From Bacteroidia bacterium (GTDB lineage: Bacteria > Bacteroidota > Bacteroidia > Bacteroidales > Azobacteroidaceae), in the NCBI GenBank assembly GCA_026000155.1, contig BNYG01000002.1, forward strand, positions 62,001-126,000: a stretch of DNA of 64,000 nt, read 5' to 3'. The position numbers and the translations under genes are program-made. The notes beneath the pieces are model-generated. The model had not been told where the DNA came from and searched no databases. It saw only the letters and a list, made by a program, of their open reading frames with translations. This document shows, piece after piece, positions 2,291-62,821 of the stretch; positions within the stretch are counted from its first letter, which is position 1, and each line of letters opens with the position of its first letter.

Positions 2291-2321
2291 CAACAGAATT
2301 CATATTTGAAAATTATTACTT

Positions 2322-2329
2322 AACTTTGT
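2322..2329 (+). promoter_or_regulatory. Candidate -7 box for leuS
   Basis: TAACTTTG matches the Bacteroidota -7 consensus TAnnTTTG and sits 32 bp before the leuS start codon. No clear TTTG -33 box stands at the usual 19-21 bp spacing, so the assignment is moderate. Confidence 0.45.
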
Positions 2330-2361: not shown

Positions 2362-3963
2362 ATGGAATACAATTTCAACGAAATCGAGAAAAAGTGGCAG
2401 GAATATTGGAAAGAAAACCACACTTACCGGGTACAAAAAGATAAAAACAAACCGAAATATTACGTTTTGGACATGTTCCCCTACCCTTCCGGCGCCGGCT
2501 TGCATGTCGGGCATCCGCTCGGTTACATTGCCTCCGATATTTATGCGCGATACAAACGCCTGAAAGGTTTTAACGTCTTGCATCCAATGGGTTACGATGC
2601 CTACGGACTTCCTGCGGAACAATATGCCATTCAAACCGGACAACATCCTGCGGTGACTACGGAACAAAACATCAACCGTTACCGCGAACAATTGGATAAA
2701 ATCGGCTTCAGTTTCGACTGGAATCGCGAAGTGCGCACTTGCGATCCGGAATACTACAAATGGACCCAATGGGCCTTTGTCAAAATGTTCAATTCTGTTT
2801 TCTGCAACATCTGCAAAAAAGCCTTGCCAATGGAAAACATCATCGAAGCGTTTGAAGAAAGCGGTACAGAAGGTTTGGATTTAGCTTGTACCGAACCGAT
2901 GACGTTTACTGCCGAAGATTGGAAAGCCAAATCGGAAAAGGAAAAACAGGAAATCCTGATGAATTACCGCCTGGCATATTTGGCGGATACAATGGTAAAT
3001 TGGTGTTCCGCTTTGGGAACCGTCTTGGCGAATGACGAAGTGAGCGAAGGCGTTTCGGTTCGCGGAGGTCATCCGGTAGAACAACGGAAAATGCGCCAAT
3101 GGAGCCTGCGCGTTTCAGCCTATTCCCAACGCTTATTGGACGGATTGGATAAATTGGAATGGACGGAATCGTTGAAAGAAACGCAACGCAATTGGATAGG
3201 ACGGAGCGAAGGTGCGGAATTGGATTTTCAAATCAAGGATTTGGATGTAAAATTTACAGTTTTTACAACAAGAGCCGATACTATTTATGGTGTTACTTTC
3301 ATGGTGTTGGCACCCGAATCGGAATATGTTTCTCAAGTTGTTACCACTGAACAAAAAGAAGAAGTAGCAGCTTATTTGGATGCCGTAAAACGCCGTACCG
3401 AACGCGAACGCATTGCCGACCGGCGCGTAACCGGCGTATTTACCGGCTCGTATGCCGTCAATCCGGTGAATGGAGAAGCTATTCCCATCTGGATTTCCGA
3501 TTATGTATTAGCAGGATACGGAACAGGCGCCATCATGGCAGTTCCGGCGCACGACAGCCGCGACTACGCTTTTGCCAAACACTTCAACCTGCCGATTATT
3601 CCGTTGATTGAAGGTGCTGATGTAAGCGAAGAAAGTTTCGATGCAAAAGAAGGAATCATGATGAATTCGGGCTTTTTGAATGGATTGACCGTAAAAGAAG
3701 CGATTCAAAAGGCAAAAGAATATATTGCAGAAAACAAATTAGGCAAAGTAAAAGTCAATTACCGTCTGCGCGATGCGATTTTCAGTCGCCAACGATACTG
3801 GGGCGAACCTTTCCCGATTTATTACAAAGATGGAATGCCTTATACGGTCGCAATCAAAGACTTGCCGATTGAATTGCCGGAAGTGGATAAGTTTTTGCCG
3901 ACGGAGACGGGGGAGCCGCCGCTGGGGAGGGCGAAGGATTGGGTGTATCGAGAGAGAAAGTAA
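2362..3963 (+). CDS. leuS: Leucyl-tRNA synthetase, N-terminal half (split gene)
   Basis: The first 533 residues of leucyl-tRNA synthetase. The HIGH-type signature is in [12 protein letters not shown] (His48-His51). The CP1 editing domain follows, with [18 protein letters not shown], then the post-editing segment [20 protein letters not shown]. The protein stops after [17 protein letters not shown], just before the [14 protein letters not shown] segment that resumes at 6.45 kb. The start chosen is the ATG giving [16 protein letters not shown], the normal N-terminus; a longer frame upstream has no family support. The half lacks KMSKS and the anticodon-binding domain and cannot be active alone. 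Whether it works with the second half as a two-subunit enzyme or is dead is not visible from sequence; both halves look uneroded. Confidence 0.93.
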
Positions 3964-3998
3964 TTTGCATGAAATATTTGAGACTAATGGGACAATTA

Positions 3999-4041
3999 GG
4001 GACTTTTTGGGACACACGTCCCTAATGTCCCAAAAAGTCCC
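3999..4041. repeat. 15-bp perfect inverted repeat at the left edge of the leuS insert
   Basis: GGGACTTTTTGGGAC at 3999-4013 and its exact complement at 4027-4041 flank a 13-base loop; the flanks add further GGGAC/GTCCC units. It starts 36 bp after the leuS N-half stop and 31 bp before the four-helix-bundle gene. It could be a hairpin terminator-like or boundary element of the inserted DNA. Confidence 0.8.
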
Positions 4042-4071
4042 AAGAGTCCCAAAAAATAAAAAAGAGAAAAA

Positions 4072-4653
4072 ATGAACAACACCAACAACAACACCCAAAA
4101 CGGCGGTTTCATCCCCAAGCATGGCGGCTATAAAAACCTGATTAGTTTTCAGAAGGCGGAGATAATCTATGATGCCACAAAATATTTTACCAATCGCTTT
4201 TATCGCAAGCCTGACCGCACTATCGACCAAATGGTGCAGGCGGCGCGTAGCGGCAAACAAAATATTGCGGAAGCGAGTATGGCTTCGGCCATGTCGAAAC
4301 AAACCGAAATATTTTTGACCAATGTTGCCAAAGCGTCTTTAGAAGAATTGGAGCTTGATTATGAGGATTTTTTGCGTACCAATAAATTGCCTATTTGGGA
4401 AAAAACAAACCGTTTGGTTGTACGTTTCCGCGAAATAAACCGAACGCCTCACGCCAACTATCAAACCTACGTCAAAGCAATTGAAAATGAAAGCCCTGAA
4501 ATTTGTGCCAACTCAATGATTTGTCTGATAAAAATCGTTATCTATTTGTTGACAAAACAAATACAGCAACTTGAAAAAGACTTTTTGGCAAATGGCGGAA
4601 TAAAAGAACGAATGACAAAGGCGCGAATTGAGAATAGAAATAAACAAAAATAA
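4072..4653 (+). CDS. Four-helix-bundle protein (23S rRNA IVS-protein type, with suffix domain)
   Basis: A 193-residue, mostly helical protein. The segment FQKAEIIYDATKYFTNRFYR, with the following DQMVQAARSGKQNIAEA and TNVAKASLEELELDYEDFL, matches the four-helix-bundle family first seen in 23S rRNA intervening sequences. The longer C-terminal part (NSMICLIKIVIYLLTKQIQQLEKDF) fits the suffix-domain variant seen in Bacteroidota. The molecular function of the family is not established. It is the first gene of the DNA inserted into leuS, preceded by a perfect inverted repeat, and lies 4 bp from the next gene start. Family call is firm; any role in the insertion is inference. Confidence 0.85.
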   Translation: MNNTNNNTQNGGFIPKHGGYKNLISFQKAEIIYDATKYFTNRFYRKPDRTIDQMVQAARSGKQNIAEASMASAMSKQTEIFLTNVAKASLEELELDYEDFLRTNKLPIWEKTNRLVVRFREINRTPHANYQTYVKAIENESPEICANSMICLIKIVIYLLTKQIQQLEKDFLANGGIKERMTKARIENRNKQK

Positions 4654-4657
4654 AAAT

Positions 4658-5248
4658 ATGTCAACAGAATCATCAAACATAGAACATCACCCACTGACAC
4701 CCTTCCTCCCAAAGGATGCAAAGCTATTGATGTTAGGCAGTTTTCCGCCACCGCAAAAGCGTTGGTCAATGGATTTTTACTACCCAAATCTTAACAACGA
4801 TATGTGGCGTGTGATGGGTTTGATTTTTTTTAACGAAAAAAACTACTTTGTAGAAACGGCACACAAAGCTTTTTGCAAAGAGCGAATTGTCGATTTTGTG
4901 ACAGAAAAGGGCATCGCTTTGTTCGATACCGCTACTGTTGTACGCCGTTTGAAAGACAATGCATCCGACCAATTTCTCGAAATTGTGGAGGCGACCGATA
5001 TTCGGGCTTTATTGCAGCAACTTTCTAATTGCAAGGCAATTGCCGTTACCGGGCAAAAAGCGATGGACACATTGCGCACTCAACTGCAAGTAGAAGAACC
5101 GGCTGTGGGGACAAGTGTAGAATTTTTGTTTGAAAATCGTTCGATGCGGCTTTTTCGTATGCCTTCGACTTCGCGCGCTTACCCTCTGCCGTTGGAACGC
5201 AAAGCTGTAATGTACGAAACAATGTTGAAAACGATTGGAATTAGTTAA
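4658..5248 (+). CDS. Uracil-DNA-glycosylase-superfamily protein
   Basis: A 196-residue protein of the uracil-DNA glycosylase fold family, expected to act in base-excision repair or related base recognition. The active-site-like strand is LLMLGSFPPP (from residue 23), followed by FYYPNLNNDMWRVMG, and the C-terminal MPSTSRAYPLPLERKA corresponds to the substrate-binding loop. The start is the ATG giving MSTESSN; an upstream TTG in frame would overlap the previous gene and add nothing conserved. It is packed directly behind the four-helix-bundle gene, within the DNA that interrupts leuS. Substrate is unknown. Confidence 0.8.
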   Translation: MSTESSNIEHHPLTPFLPKDAKLLMLGSFPPPQKRWSMDFYYPNLNNDMWRVMGLIFFNEKNYFVETAHKAFCKERIVDFVTEKGIALFDTATVVRRLKDNASDQFLEIVEATDIRALLQQLSNCKAIAVTGQKAMDTLRTQLQVEEPAVGTSVEFLFENRSMRLFRMPSTSRAYPLPLERKAVMYETMLKTIGIS

Positions 5249-5262
5249 TTAGATAATCAGAT

Positions 5263-5577
5263 ATGACTGACAAAAATGAAATAGTCCTTTATCAACCCAA
5301 CAATTCCGTAAAATTGGAAGTCCGGCTTGAAAATGAAACGGTTTGGTTGAATCGTCAGCAGTTGGCATTACTTTTTGACCGAGATATAAAGACAATTGGC
5401 AAACATATCAACAATGCGTTAAAGGAAAGAGCTAATATTCACGATCGATTTCTGCTGATAGACAACGATATTTATCATATCGGCGCTTCGCTTAAAGATT
5501 TGGGGAAGAAACTTTTTGCTTTTACGAAGATGGGGATGAAGGCGGAGGAGTTGATGAGGAATATAAATTTTATATAA
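5263..5577 (+). pseudogene. Short RhuM/ORF6N-type chimera, probably a decayed gene
   Basis: Only 104 residues. The N-terminus (EIVLYQPNNSVKLEVRLENETVWLNR in part) matches the RhuM virulence-protein family, with a helix-turn-helix-like QQLALLFDRDIKTIGKHINNAL. From about residue 60 the sequence changes to a tail (DRFLLIDNDIYHIGASLKDLGK) that in other proteins ends ORF6N-type virulence proteins. RhuM proteins are usually about 330 residues, so this looks like an in-frame fusion of two truncated genes. It may still be translated; no function can be assigned. Confidence 0.6.
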
Positions 5578-5585
5578 AACAAAAA

Positions 5586-6125
5586 ATGGAAAATATCTTT
5601 ATAGGAATCTACACAATAATAATAGGAGTCATTGTGTATCTGATTAAAAAAATATTTGAAAATCAAATTGATTTAAGGAAAGATATACTTATACATCGAT
5701 TTAGTGCAATTTATACTGAAAAACTTTCTCTAATGAAAGAAATATATCGAAAAGTTGTAGTTGCAGAAAAATCATTAGAACATGTAATGCGCCCAATCAA
5801 ACTGAATGATAATAGGTCAACAGAAGAACTCGAAAAGGAGGCTGTAGATAATATCAATGCACTTTTTAATTATTTTGACGAAAATGAGATAATTTTTAAT
5901 GATAAAACAGTAACTTTAATTAGACAGTTGCAAACCAATTTTCATAAGGCATGGAAATCTTATAATGGAATAAGTTTTTTCACAAGAAACAGTGACGCTT
6001 GGAATAAAGCTATTAATGAATCTATTGATGTCTATAATACAACAGTAGCTAAAGATATTCCTGCATTAAAACAAGAATTAAAAGAAGATTTTCAAAATCA
6101 ACTTAGAATACTTGAAAAAAATTAA
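5586..6125 (+). CDS. Small membrane-anchored protein of unknown function
   Basis: A 179-residue protein with one N-terminal transmembrane helix (IFIGIYTIIIGVIVYLI) followed by a basic turn and a long helical cytoplasmic part with coiled-coil character (KLSLMKEIYRKVVVAEKSLE; AWKSYNGISFF). No family recognised. It starts 8 bp after the RhuM-like remnant. It is noticeably richer in A and T than leuS or valS, in keeping with a different origin. It is the last gene of the leuS insert. Confidence 0.6.
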   Translation: MENIFIGIYTIIIGVIVYLIKKIFENQIDLRKDILIHRFSAIYTEKLSLMKEIYRKVVVAEKSLEHVMRPIKLNDNRSTEELEKEAVDNINALFNYFDENEIIFNDKTVTLIRQLQTNFHKAWKSYNGISFFTRNSDAWNKAINESIDVYNTTVAKDIPALKQELKEDFQNQLRILEKN

Positions 6126-6185
6126 CGAATATGTCAAACGAAAAAGTGCAATTATTTCGATGCGCTTTATGGAACAAAAACTCAA

Positions 6186-6390
6186 TATCCCGCAGGGATA
6201 GCACTTTATTAACCGTAGGCTTTAGCCTACGGTATAGAAATGCCTGACATGCCCAAGTCCCGCATGGGACGGTACATAAAAAGGGTGCAATTGGCAGCAA
6301 TGTGTCGTCCCTGCGGGACTTGGGAAGGAGTGTACAGTCATGTCCGTAGGCTAAAGCCTACGGTTAATAAAGTGTTGTCCTTGCAGGACA
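6186..6390. mobile_element. MITE-like element, about 205 bp with long imperfect inverted arms
   Basis: Two arms of roughly 85 bp are imperfect inverted copies of each other. Each arm contains a 20-bp palindrome (CCGTAGGCTTTAGCCTACGG at 6213-6232; its complement form at 6344-6363) next to CACTTTATTAAC or its complement, and a TCCCGCAGGGA-type or GTCCCTGCGGGAC-type palindrome. There is no coding capacity. It occupies most of the 326-bp gap between the last insert gene and the second leuS half, which otherwise holds only the presumed promoter of that half. Confidence 0.8.
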
Positions 6391-6451
6391 ATGCGTAAAT
6401 TACATAAAAACGTTTGCAACAGAAATAAAAATTTATTAACTTTACAAAAAT

Positions 6452-7645
6452 ATGGACAGTAACAAAAAAACAGCAGAAAACACGTATCCACTTGAGTTGG
6501 CAACCATGCCGGGATTTGCCGGTTCTTCCGCTTATTATTTGCGCTACGAAGACCCGCACAACAGCGAGCGTTTGGTAAGTAAAGAGGATAACGACTATTG
6601 GCGCAATGTCGATTTGTATATCGGTGGCACGGAACATGCTACCGGTCACTTGATTTATTCGCGTTTTTGGAATAAATTCTTGTTTGACAGGGGAGTAATC
6701 GTGGAAGATGAACCGTTCAAGAAACTAATTAACCAGGGAATGATTCAGGGACGAAGCAACTTTGTTTACCGCATCAAAAACACCAATACATTCGTTTCTT
6801 TCGGATTGAAAGACCAATACGATGTGACGCCTATTCATGTGAATGTCAATTTTGTTTCCAATGATGTTCTTGATTTGGAAGCATTTAAAAATTGGAATCC
6901 CGAATATAAAACGGCCGAATTTATTTTGGAAGACGGTAAATATGTTTGCGGTTGGGCAGTGGAAAAAATGTCAAAATCCATGTTCAATGTCGTGAATCCC
7001 GATGATATTGTGGAAAAATTCGGAGCCGATACGTTACGTTTGTACGAAATGTTTTTAGGACCCTTGGAACAATCCAAACCTTGGGATACGAATGGAATTG
7101 ACGGCGTTTCGCGTTTTTTGCGCAAACTGTGGAATCTGTTCTTCCAAGGCGATGAATTTGTTGTTTCCGATGGGCAGCCGACTGCCGACGAATTAAAATC
7201 TATTCATAAATTAATCAAGAAAGTGGGACAGGATATTGAGAATTTCTCATTTAATACTTCGGTCGCAGCTTTCATGATTTGTGCCAACGAATTGACAGCT
7301 TTGAAATGTAACAAACGGGCAATTTTAGCCGATTTCATCGTTGTTTTATCGCCTTTCGCCCCTCATATCGCTGAAGAATTGTGGCACCGGTTGGGACACA
7401 AAACCACCGTTTGCGATGCTAAATTTCCTGATTACAACGAGGAATATTTGAAAGAAAGCAATGTAAAATACACCGTTTCTTTCAATGGAAAAGCGCGTTT
7501 TACCTTGGATTTCCCGATAGATACGGCAAAAGAAGAAGTCGAAAAAACCGTATTGGCTAACGAAAGCACTCAAAAATGGACGGAAGGCAAAGCGCCGAAA
7601 AAAGTGATTGTCGTACCCAATAAAATTGTCAATATTGTAACATAA
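6452..7645 (+). CDS. leuS: Leucyl-tRNA synthetase, C-terminal half (split gene)
   Basis: 397 residues covering the second half of leucyl-tRNA synthetase: [19 protein letters not shown], the long [20 protein letters not shown] segment, the KMSKS loop ([18 protein letters not shown]), the anticodon-binding helices ([17 protein letters not shown]) and the C-terminal domain ending [14 protein letters not shown]. The first ten residues ([10 protein letters not shown]) do not belong to the family and look like a new start acquired at the junction; an in-frame stop lies upstream, so it is not simply a read-through of the first half. TTAACTTTAC just upstream resembles a weak -7 box. There is no sign of decay. 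Confidence 0.93.
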
Positions 7646-60404: not shown

Positions 60405-62821
60405 TTGTCATCATCGGATATGTTATTATGGTAGCCCTGTCCATATCCGGTATCGTGTGGATATATACGGAATGGTTGAATTTTACCAAAACTTCCGAAT
60501 CTCGTCCGCAACGACAAGAATTAGTTATTTTGAGCAATACCCTGGCGACCATGTATCACGCCGAAGGTACGGTAGGCCTTTTATCTTTGGTAACCGATCC
60601 CGGATTAAATGTAGAATATGATTCATTGATGACTACCGTTTTTCATCAAATAGATAACCTGAAAAAAAATTCCAAAGAACCGGCTTTGAATATGCATCTG
60701 GATAGTCTGAATATCCTGTTGTTACGAAAAAAAGAAAATACGGCCGAACTGGTTCAATTGGTAAAATCTTTTCAGGACAATACGGTAAAAGACATCACCA
60801 ATACCACCATACTGAACCGGAACGATTTGGATGCCTTGGATAAGTTGTTGTCCAATACGGTACATCAATCCGAAGATACCGCAACCATCATAGGAGAGAA
60901 AAAAGGATTTTTCCGGAGAATCGGAGATGCGATCAAATCCTCCAATCCGGATACTATGCGCCAGATCAATTCGCACTCCGCCACTACTCAACAGGAATTG
61001 GTGTTGCCGGCGATTAAAGATACGCTTGTCGAATTTATACAGGAAATCAATAAAACGGCACAAAAGAAAAATGCCGCGATTACGGTACAATTGATGCTGA
61101 AACAAAACGAATTATACAGCATGAATGAGCGTACCACCGCTCAAATCAACCAAATAATGGCAGAATTAGAAGCCTCCGAATACAACGATACGCTTAAATT
61201 ATCGTACGAAAGGACGGAAACCATCCGGCGTTCTTCGATTATTATGTCCATTATTGCTTTTTCTGCGATTATTGTAGCGCTCATTTTCATGTCCTGGATC
61301 CTGCATTCCCTGACGGTTAGTCAACGGCTCCACCGCCAGATTGAACGCGCCAAAAAGGACGTGGAGGAATTGCTAGCTTCCCGCGAACAATTGATGCTGA
61401 CGATTACGCATGATATTAAAGCGCCCGTCAGTTCGATTTTGGGCTATCTGGAATTGATGACGCAAGACAAACCTTCTTTCCAGGAGGGTTATTACATCGA
61501 AAATATGCAGCATTCCGCCACGCATATCCTGGATTTGGTACGGAATTTATTGGATTTTCATTCCTTGGAAAGCAGTCAACAAAAACCGGATCAATTGCCG
61601 TTTTCTCCCTATATCCTCTTATCCGATATTTACGAAAGTTTTATTCCCAATGCCCGGAAAAAAGAACTGCAATTTGAATTTCAACCGGATATGGATAAAG
61701 AAGCAAATTATGCGAATGATCCCTACCGCATCCGGCAAATCGTCAATAACATCCTTTCCAATGCGATTAAATATACTCCCGCCAAAGGTTCGGTCGTTTT
61801 ATCGGCGAAATTAATCCGGGACAAACAACCGGCCGAACTCTTGATTGCCGTCCGGGATACGGGACCGGGAATAAAGGAACAAGATAAAAAACAGATATTT
61901 GAGGCTTTCAAACGCTTGGATTATACCGGAGCCGGCATTGAAGGATTCGGATTGGGTTTGAATATTTCCACTAAAATGGCTCACCTGCTGGGCGGTTCTA
62001 TTTCCGTTGAATCCACTGTGGGTGAAGGTTCCGTTTTTACCATCACCCTGCCCTTGCATCCAATGAGTCCGGTCGTCACTCAACCGGTCAAAAAACGTCC
62101 GGATACACATCCGGTGAAAATATTATTCATTGACGACGACCCGATCCAATTGGACCTGGTGTCTAAAATAACGGAACGGGAAGGAATGCTTCCGCATACC
62201 TGTTCCCATTCGTTGGAGGCTTTGAGTTTGTTGCAAAAAAAACATTTTGACATTATTTTCTCCGATATTCAAATGCCGGACATGAACGGCTTTGAATTGG
62301 TGAAACGCATCCGCCAATCCGGTTTTGAAGGAGCGCCTACTATTCCCATTGTCGGCCTGTCTGCCAATTCGTATGCGTCTCAGGCCAAATACAAAGAGGC
62401 TGGTTTTACGTCGTTTTTGGTCAAACCGTTTAACTCCGGGCAACTGATTGAAACCATTTACCTCCATACTTCCGGAAGCGAAAATCCAACGGTTGCGGTA
62501 GCTCCGAAAGAAAATAAAGGTTTTGAAGCCTTGATGGAATTTGCGGGAGATGACCCGGAAGCCGGGAAATCAATTATCCGTTCCTTTGTAACCGAAACAG
62601 AAAAAAGTTACAAGTTGTTGGCTCGGGCATTTGCCGATAACGATTGGGAAAAGGTCCGGAATATTTCGCATAAAATGCTGCCGTTGATGAAAATGATATC
62701 TGCCGATCAATTGGTGTCCCTTTTAGAAAGTTATGCCGCCGGCGGTAAAGAAAAAAATAAAACCCTGTTATTGAAATTGATCCGGGAAAACATACAAGCA
62801 GCAGACCAATTTATAACTTAA
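60386..62821 (+). CDS. Hybrid histidine kinase with receiver and HPt-like end
   Basis: 811 residues. A transmembrane helix at the start (IIVIIGYVIMVALSISGIVW) and another near 285-308 (SIIMSIIAFSAIIVALIFMSW) enclose a periplasmic helical sensor. Then come a HisKA domain (LTITHDIKAPVSSILGYLEL, His342), HATPase (NNILSNAIKYTP; DTGPGIKEQ; GFGLGLNIS), a receiver (ILFIDDDPIQ; IIFSDIQMPDMNG) and a C-terminal HPt-like helix (NISHKMLPLMKM, His762). It probably signals through the NtrC-type regulator encoded just upstream. Position suggests control of the divergent efflux operon. Confidence 0.92.
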   Translation: MFKTKIIVIIGYVIMVALSISGIVWIYTEWLNFTKTSESRPQRQELVILSNTLATMYHAEGTVGLLSLVTDPGLNVEYDSLMTTVFHQIDNLKKNSKEPALNMHLDSLNILLLRKKENTAELVQLVKSFQDNTVKDITNTTILNRNDLDALDKLLSNTVHQSEDTATIIGEKKGFFRRIGDAIKSSNPDTMRQINSHSATTQQELVLPAIKDTLVEFIQEINKTAQKKNAAITVQLMLKQNELYSMNERTTAQINQIMAELEASEYNDTLKLSYERTETIRRSSIIMSIIAFSAIIVALIFMSWILHSLTVSQRLHRQIERAKKDVEELLASREQLMLTITHDIKAPVSSILGYLELMTQDKPSFQEGYYIENMQHSATHILDLVRNLLDFHSLESSQQKPDQLPFSPYILLSDIYESFIPNARKKELQFEFQPDMDKEANYANDPYRIRQIVNNILSNAIKYTPAKGSVVLSAKLIRDKQPAELLIAVRDTGPGIKEQDKKQIFEAFKRLDYTGAGIEGFGLGLNISTKMAHLLGGSISVESTVGEGSVFTITLPLHPMSPVVTQPVKKRPDTHPVKILFIDDDPIQLDLVSKITEREGMLPHTCSHSLEALSLLQKKHFDIIFSDIQMPDMNGFELVKRIRQSGFEGAPTIPIVGLSANSYASQAKYKEAGFTSFLVKPFNSGQLIETIYLHTSGSENPTVAVAPKENKGFEALMEFAGDDPEAGKSIIRSFVTETEKSYKLLARAFADNDWEKVRNISHKMLPLMKMISADQLVSLLESYAAGGKEKNKTLLLKLIRENIQAADQFIT

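Follow-up and report, generated by a model that had tools for sequence, protein, structure and literature searches.

How a leucyl-tRNA synthetase (LeuRS) comes to be encoded by two separate genes, and whether these genes together supply the enzyme, are the questions raised by a locus in the window, the term used here for the whole 64,000-nucleotide stretch of Azobacteroidaceae DNA that was analyzed (positions 62,001 to 126,000 of contig BNYG01000002.1, assembly GCA_026000155.1). Two leuS genes are located on the same strand in this window, with 2,488 bp between them (3964-6451). The first one, the N half (2362..3963, + strand), encodes 533 amino acids including the HIGH motif and the CP1 editing domain (PF13603, E 2e-63; PF00133; TIGR00396, 624 bits). 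It runs from an ATG at 2362 to a TAA at 3961-3963; the frame is open further upstream, yet the family start MEYNF corresponds to position 2362. The second one, the C half (6452..7645, + strand), encodes 397 amino acids including KMSKS and the anticodon-binding domain (PF08264, E 1e-18; TIGR00396, 318 bits) and runs from an ATG at 6452 to a TAA at 7643-7645. The TIGR00396 profile is shared between the halves, the N half covering its positions 1-474 and the C half positions 483-842; the N half is above the cut-off of 548 bits and the C half alone is below it. A motif check found HIGH, the CP1 editing residues and KMSKS in the window halves. An earlier note on this DNA had claimed that leuS is present as two genes of 533 and 397 residues, and the open frames bear this out.

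Comparison with intact relatives, as that note had proposed, mapped the junction to a two-residue turn after W-x-Y. Eleven of the 13 genomes of the genus that have leuS as a single open frame read W-x-Y-[KN]-G-YP[LM]EL across the junction; in the remaining two, G020 and G032, the linker is longer. Therefore, the family sequence lost is this two-residue turn at most, and the note was right that almost nothing is missing. Its placement of the N-half end after GRAKDW was incorrect: the real end is six residues later, with the tail VYRERK (3943..3960, + strand) at the common break point after W-x-Y. The C half has its own start and resumes at YPLEL as described there, after a leader of 11 residues (6452..6484, + strand) rather than ten. 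When aligned with the T. thermophilus LeuRS (1h3n), the N half reaches residue 461 and the C half, from its residue 17, starts at residue 496. The junction is not within the CP1 editing domain and precedes the leucine-specific domain, which spans approximately residues 577-634 of the T. thermophilus enzyme and would be contained whole in the window C half. The length of the junction loop varies among intact relatives from two residues up to some 17 more. In two intact LeuRS genes of other Bacteroidales (L126, near 7872, and L167, near 3126), precisely this loop contains similar-looking palindromic-repeat peptides in frame.

The state of leuS was classified in 38 genomes of the genus (G numbers). 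The gene was split in 21, a single open frame across the junction in 13, and unjudgeable in four, being partial in G006 and G036 and without a leuS match in G011 and G018. The lineages with split leuS are presumably termite and cockroach gut bacteria. The break is at the same residue in every split genome with a readable junction. Coverage of the N half extends to the junction in 18 of the 21 split genomes, 17 of which end 2-8 residues past W-x-Y. The other one, G034, continues in frame past the junction for approximately 206 non-LeuRS residues, which match no Pfam family (L179, 2928-3548); as judged from the reading frame, it is a LeuRS N half fused to cargo, as we call the genes found between the halves. 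In G001, a contig edge cuts off the first 94 residues of the N half, and G002, G008 and G031 were called split because their C half has a start of its own. Fourteen split genomes of the genus have the two halves to the junction; G008 and G031 have the C half and an N piece truncated by the contig end.

The distance between the halves is highly variable. On a shared contig they are separated by 39 nt in G033, 0.45 kb in G015, 1.2 kb in G030, 1.7 kb in G001, 2.5 kb in the window, and 11.5 kb in G034 (measured from the end of the run-on frame). In G017, each half has its own contig, and the ends of the two contigs carry an identical piece of a gene. Eight genomes with two halves, including G312 from another family, have them on separate contigs, where the facing sequence (after the N half plus before the C half) amounts to 48.7 kb in G004, 48.7 kb in G009, 30.0 kb in G026, 27.6 kb in G312, 25.0 kb in G007, 16.4 kb in G027, 9.6 kb in G019 and 4.0 kb in G022. 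Since the halves sit on separate contigs and far apart, read-through or frameshifting is implausible as a way of joining them.

Stand-alone C halves were also found among database sequences. The C half had 7,595 database matches, and among the best 120 of them 66 were stand-alone C halves with short K/N/E-rich leaders, 64 of the 66 having a start Met. One of these stand-alone C halves, P0052, is annotated as "leucyl-tRNA synthetase" of Ca. Symbiothrix dinenymphae. The C-half leaders are 4-19 residues long. Some facts speak against a two-subunit enzyme: all assemblies are draft bins with possibly mis-binned contigs, the genome of the window is 87.9% complete, and the C half was not found for the bins G010, G035, G024 and G029. 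Likewise, no N half was found for the draft bin G002. The draft state of every assembly could suggest that the split is an assembly join or a chimeric bin; however, the same split is found in other assemblies, with the same break residue in 21 bins and stand-alone C halves on many other contigs, including the annotated one, and both window halves lie inside a single contig (C2) of at least 126 kb. We consider such an artifact to be practically negligible as an explanation.

The next question is whether the halves function. A profile search for a second leuS, also proposed in the earlier note, found none in the genome's own assembly (2.85 Mb, 282 contigs, 87.9% complete); the other matches to the LeuRS profile were two frames with the NCBIfam names valine- and isoleucine--tRNA ligase. 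An intact leuS was absent from all five split genomes of the genus that are at least 90% complete (G007, G009, G017, G027 and G034) and was not found in G312 (93% complete). The pairwise ratio of nonsynonymous to synonymous substitution rates (dN/dS) was 0.035-0.094 in both halves in the eight split-split pairs with a possible estimate; the ninth pair, G007/G008, was saturated and was left out. The median ratios of the proportions of nonsynonymous and synonymous differences (pN/pS) were similar in split genomes (N half 0.17, C half 0.147) and intact ones (N segment 0.169, C segment 0.161). HIGH and KMSKS were found in every genome covering the segment, and the complete N half of G035 had no match to the pattern used for the threonine-rich editing motif. 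A reading of the halves as pseudogenes was rejected on account of this purifying selection.

Promoter-like sequences are located upstream of both halves. The Bacteroidetes -7 element is TAnnTTTG. A -7-like box, TAACTTTG (2321..2328, + strand), is located 33 nt upstream of the N-half ATG, and the promoter-like sequence TTTG-N20-TAACTTTA (6413..6444, + strand), with one mismatch to TAnnTTTG, is located 7 nt upstream of the C-half ATG, in agreement with the earlier claim that the C half has its own promoter-like sequence. Within 80 nt of the start, an exact TAnnTTTG element precedes 7 of the 17 C halves (shuffles predict 0.62) and 15 of the 17 N halves (shuffles predict 0.87).

Taken as genes, the leuS halves very probably encode a naturally two-subunit LeuRS. 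The earlier note had left two alternatives, that the halves assemble or that another copy exists. Assembly into one LeuRS is most likely, and is favored because no second leuS was found, the split recurs in 21 of 38 genomes, the near-complete split genomes lack an intact leuS, and dN/dS is low. Of the catalytic fold, the N polypeptide would provide the HIGH half, along with the CP1 editing domain; KMSKS, the leucine-specific domain and the anticodon-binding domain would come from the C polypeptide. The halves would be encoded and, most likely, translated separately, and their association would rebuild the active site. That they are instead remnants, while an unsampled intact or plasmid-borne leuS does the work, is very unlikely: the incompleteness of the window genome leaves room for such a copy, but none was found in the near-complete split genomes or G312, and both halves have a dN/dS of 0.035-0.094. 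Rejoining of the product into one chain, by RNA trans-splicing or protein splicing, would fit a junction without loss. However, no known RNA element was detected in the window (no Rfam match at gathering score), the N tails and C leaders are too short for intein parts, and the sequence P0018, a single frame resembling an N half joined to a C half, apparently retains the C-half start Met inside. This alternative is thus highly improbable.

Few class I synthetases are naturally split, and for LeuRS the textbook example is Aquifex. The alpha-beta LeuRS of Aquifex aeolicus was reportedly described by Xu et al. in 2002 and Ma et al. in 2006, the title of the latter containing "Split leucine-specific domain"; going by that title, the earlier claim of a split inside CP1 in Aquifex is not supported. 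The system described here resembles the Aquifex enzyme in that LeuRS would consist of two separate chains, predicted here from two open frames that each have a start and a stop. Unlike in Aquifex, where the leucine-specific domain is split, the break is between T. thermophilus residues 461 and 496, upstream of that domain, and the C half begins at approximately residue 496, so that the break is not inside the domain. The lineage is also different, there is cargo in the gap, and the distribution is patchy. One passage of a paper (PMC4975002) places the Aquifex split at the "tRNA-binding domain site". The same source reports the fission of pheT in Altiarchaeales as a lineage-wide aminoacyl-tRNA synthetase fission and a shared derived character. 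Split pheT and split leuS have in common that halves are on different contigs, nearly all conserved residues are kept, and the break is where relatives have insertions. The differences are the enzyme and the domain of life, and the intact, split and re-fused-looking states that exist side by side in the present case. No report of a split LeuRS in Bacteroidales was found among the matches listed from the open-access literature, most subscription journals being outside the scope of that search.

The gap between the window halves includes, as the earlier note had proposed, foreign-looking genes: one of intervening-sequence-protein (IVP) type, one weakly glycosylase-like, a RhuM remnant and an unnamed frame. 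An imperfect palindrome with GGGAC repeats (3988..4051, unstranded) directly follows the N half, and a similar one follows the N half of G024. The next element is a gene for a four-helix-bundle protein similar to 23S rRNA intervening-sequence proteins (4072..4653, + strand), which scores 77.5 bits against TIGR04258 (cut-off 40), 27.2 bits against TIGR02436 (cut-off 24), and 25.4 bits against PF05635, under the cut-off of 33.8. It is single-copy in its own genome, and a remnant is found together with the palindrome at the same place after the G024 N half. The IVP gene or its remnant adjoins the break only in the window genome (G000) and G024, two of 18 N-half loci, some contigs ending soon after. 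This arrangement is similar to that of the 23S rRNA intervening sequences (IVS) in having a four-helix-bundle gene and a palindrome directly after the break and, by analogy, in being an insertion in a loop of an essential molecule that would then work in pieces. It is different in that the interrupted gene encodes a protein, the gap has further cargo, and only those two loci have the element beside the break. In the G024 N half, moreover, the CP1 editing domain is interrupted by an in-frame DUF559 gene (L188, 2307-2843) between the palindromic arms PSPQGRG ... PLPCGEG, and the frame of the N half stays open.

Further downstream in the window gap is a DNA-glycosylase-like gene (4658..5248, + strand), a weak match to TIGR04274 (46 bits, below the cut-off of 80), which is single-copy in its own genome and has homologues in the G034 gap, before the G002 C half and after the G312 N half. 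It is followed by an internally deleted RhuM-like gene (5263..5577, + strand), which matches residues 1-52 and 228-276 of the 277-aa gene in the G034 gap, with 67% and 90% identity over the two pieces. Its best piece is 86-90% identical to the RhuM of the G034, G002 and G026 gaps, and the nearest RhuM paralogue in the window genome is 64% identical to the G034 gap gene. In G034, G002, G004 and G026, RhuM precedes the C half at a distance of no more than approximately 3 kb. Part of this cargo thus has homologues in more than one LeuRS clade. A 179-aa open frame (5586..6125, + strand) with no family above cut-off and an inverted repeat (6180..6396, unstranded; 73% over 233 columns) lie between these genes and the C half. 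The G034 gap contains RhuM, YhcG/DUF1016 and a DpdE/ZorD-like helicase, and the first gene after the G009 N half is a Y1 (IS200-like) transposase (L195, 3062-3523). The predicted products indicate that the gaps hold defense-type or mobile genes.

The same break was found outside the genus. An order-wide search (393 genomes, 319 matched) identified at least one further stand-alone C half, in G312, a member of another family; this count is a lower bound, the shorter frames of G126 (719 aa) and G091 (823 aa) having been left out. The G312 break is at the same point as in the genus. Its N half, a 545-aa frame that is 81% identical to the window N half, has the end PPLGHAKNWVYKP; homologues of the window RhuM and glycosylase genes come next, the latter with 84% nucleotide identity over 566. 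The C half of G312 starts with MDNHKKATANTYPLEL and matches that of the window at 30 of its first 36 nt, although its protein identity over the whole C half is 69%. Since the two halves differ in their likeness to the window, G312 may have a mosaic gene or a mis-binned contig.

Did the split then arise once or several times? In the intact G014, leuS has a DUF362-like gene upstream and a ychF-like gene downstream. The DUF362-like gene is kept beside the N half in G034, G026, G031, G010, G017 and G024, and the ychF-like gene beside the C half in G001 and G004. The leuS locus was thus opened from within in these genomes, because split genomes keep the neighbors of the G014 type on each half. The window flanks are unlike those split loci, and among the intact loci viewed both neighbors were present in G014 only. 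Comparison of third-position identities in pairs picked after viewing 12 identity profiles showed mosaic breakpoints in two of them. Identity between G004 and G026 is 0.62 to codon 177 of the N half and then 0.92 to the gap (p 0.001), and in the C half it is 0.92 for 64 codons and then 0.55 (p 0.001); directly upstream of the C halves, the two genomes share 492 nt of gap DNA at 98% identity. The N halves of G000 and G034 change in the same sense, from 0.50 to 0.80 (p 0.001). No breakpoint was seen in six of seven other pairs; the exception, G016/G014, has an N-half breakpoint of opposite sense (p 0.003). An rpoBC tree (quick method, 39 rows), which omits G029 (two conflicting rpoB pieces) and G001, G004, G032, G043 and G044 (no rpoB), disagrees with the LeuRS tree, for example for G000 and G034; mis-binning could be another cause of this disagreement. 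The mosaic pairs and the incongruence with rpoBC suggest that recombination within the halves transfers split alleles, together with part of the cargo.

Reversal of the split also seems to have occurred. The linker sequence YREKETTNTYPLEL of G020 corresponds to the N tail (YRENET) plus the C head (NTYPLEL) of its split relative G001, and G020 sits within a split clade of the LeuRS tree. The joints of P0018 and G020 look like re-fusions by their sequences; G020 could also be an unsplit state with a long loop.

From the shared cargo, the G312 leader and the mosaic tracts, we favor one fission that spread laterally and was sometimes re-fused. The break would be at a loop tolerant of insertion, with a single origin, most likely through insertion of mobile DNA. 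The split would have spread between species by homologous recombination in the leuS halves, carrying part of the cargo, and a single gene would sometimes have been restored by recombination or deletion. A number of results go against this scenario. One clade of split genes was rejected by the approximately unbiased (AU) test for the whole gene (p 0.002), for the junction ±450 nt (p 0.0045), and in four of five other 600-nt windows (p 0.0046, 3e-11, 0.0038 and 0.0002). Intact, scarless leuS genes of G005 and G028 are placed among the split genomes in the LeuRS tree. The C halves of G000 and G034 change in the reverse sense, with 0.77 near the gap and 0.94 beyond (p 0.001). G004 and G026 have no common gap DNA after their N halves, and RhuM-like genes are multi-copy, with 10 matches in the window genome besides the remnant. 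One clade was not rejected for the junction ±300 nt (p 0.148) or the last C window (p 0.092); less power in the short junction window may be the cause of its non-rejection. State changes by sliding window were 3-8 without a clean gradient, and two (FastTree) or three (IQ-TREE) in the ±300 nt junction window. The one-clade tests argue against a single vertical origin; in combination with the mosaic pairs, we take them to reflect lateral exchange.

These results could instead be due to repeated independent fission, in which palindromic or mobile elements would insert preferentially into the loop after W-x-Y and would have split leuS there several times, with each pair still forming two working subunits. 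The LeuRS tree needs six state changes, with starred branches forcing four, and the rejection of one clade, the natural variation in loop length, the palindromic-repeat peptides of L126 and L167 at the same loop, and multi-copy RhuM genes that could be gained repeatedly would all fit. However, the homologous single-copy IVP gene or remnant follows the N half in clades B and A; the single-copy glycosylase gene, RhuM and the leader with 30 of 36 nt identical recur in another family; and a full-length tree can be distorted by recombination. Independent insertion at one spot is less likely because the IVP and glycosylase genes are single-copy in the window genome. We consider repeated fission the less likely reading and keep one fission with lateral spread as the favored origin.

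A broader proposal is offered tentatively: split leuS may be a laterally spreading allele, with halves acting as homology arms that exchange a defense-gene island across species and families and toggle LeuRS between one gene and two subunits, the founding insert being perhaps IVS-like. If this is true, split leuS would be the protein counterpart of fragmented 23S rRNA. The locus would add another natural split LeuRS, at a new break point, in a loop that could also serve for dividing LeuRS experimentally. Close relatives show leuS intact, split with adjacent halves, split with halves far apart, and apparently re-fused, a mix that permits direct tests of how an essential enzyme becomes two subunits, whether that state is maintained or neutral, and whether lateral transfer can spread an essential gene that is broken. 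In another family, LeuRS of G061 is in three consecutive open frames (L226, 1454-4094), for which fission, frameshifts or sequencing error are possible.

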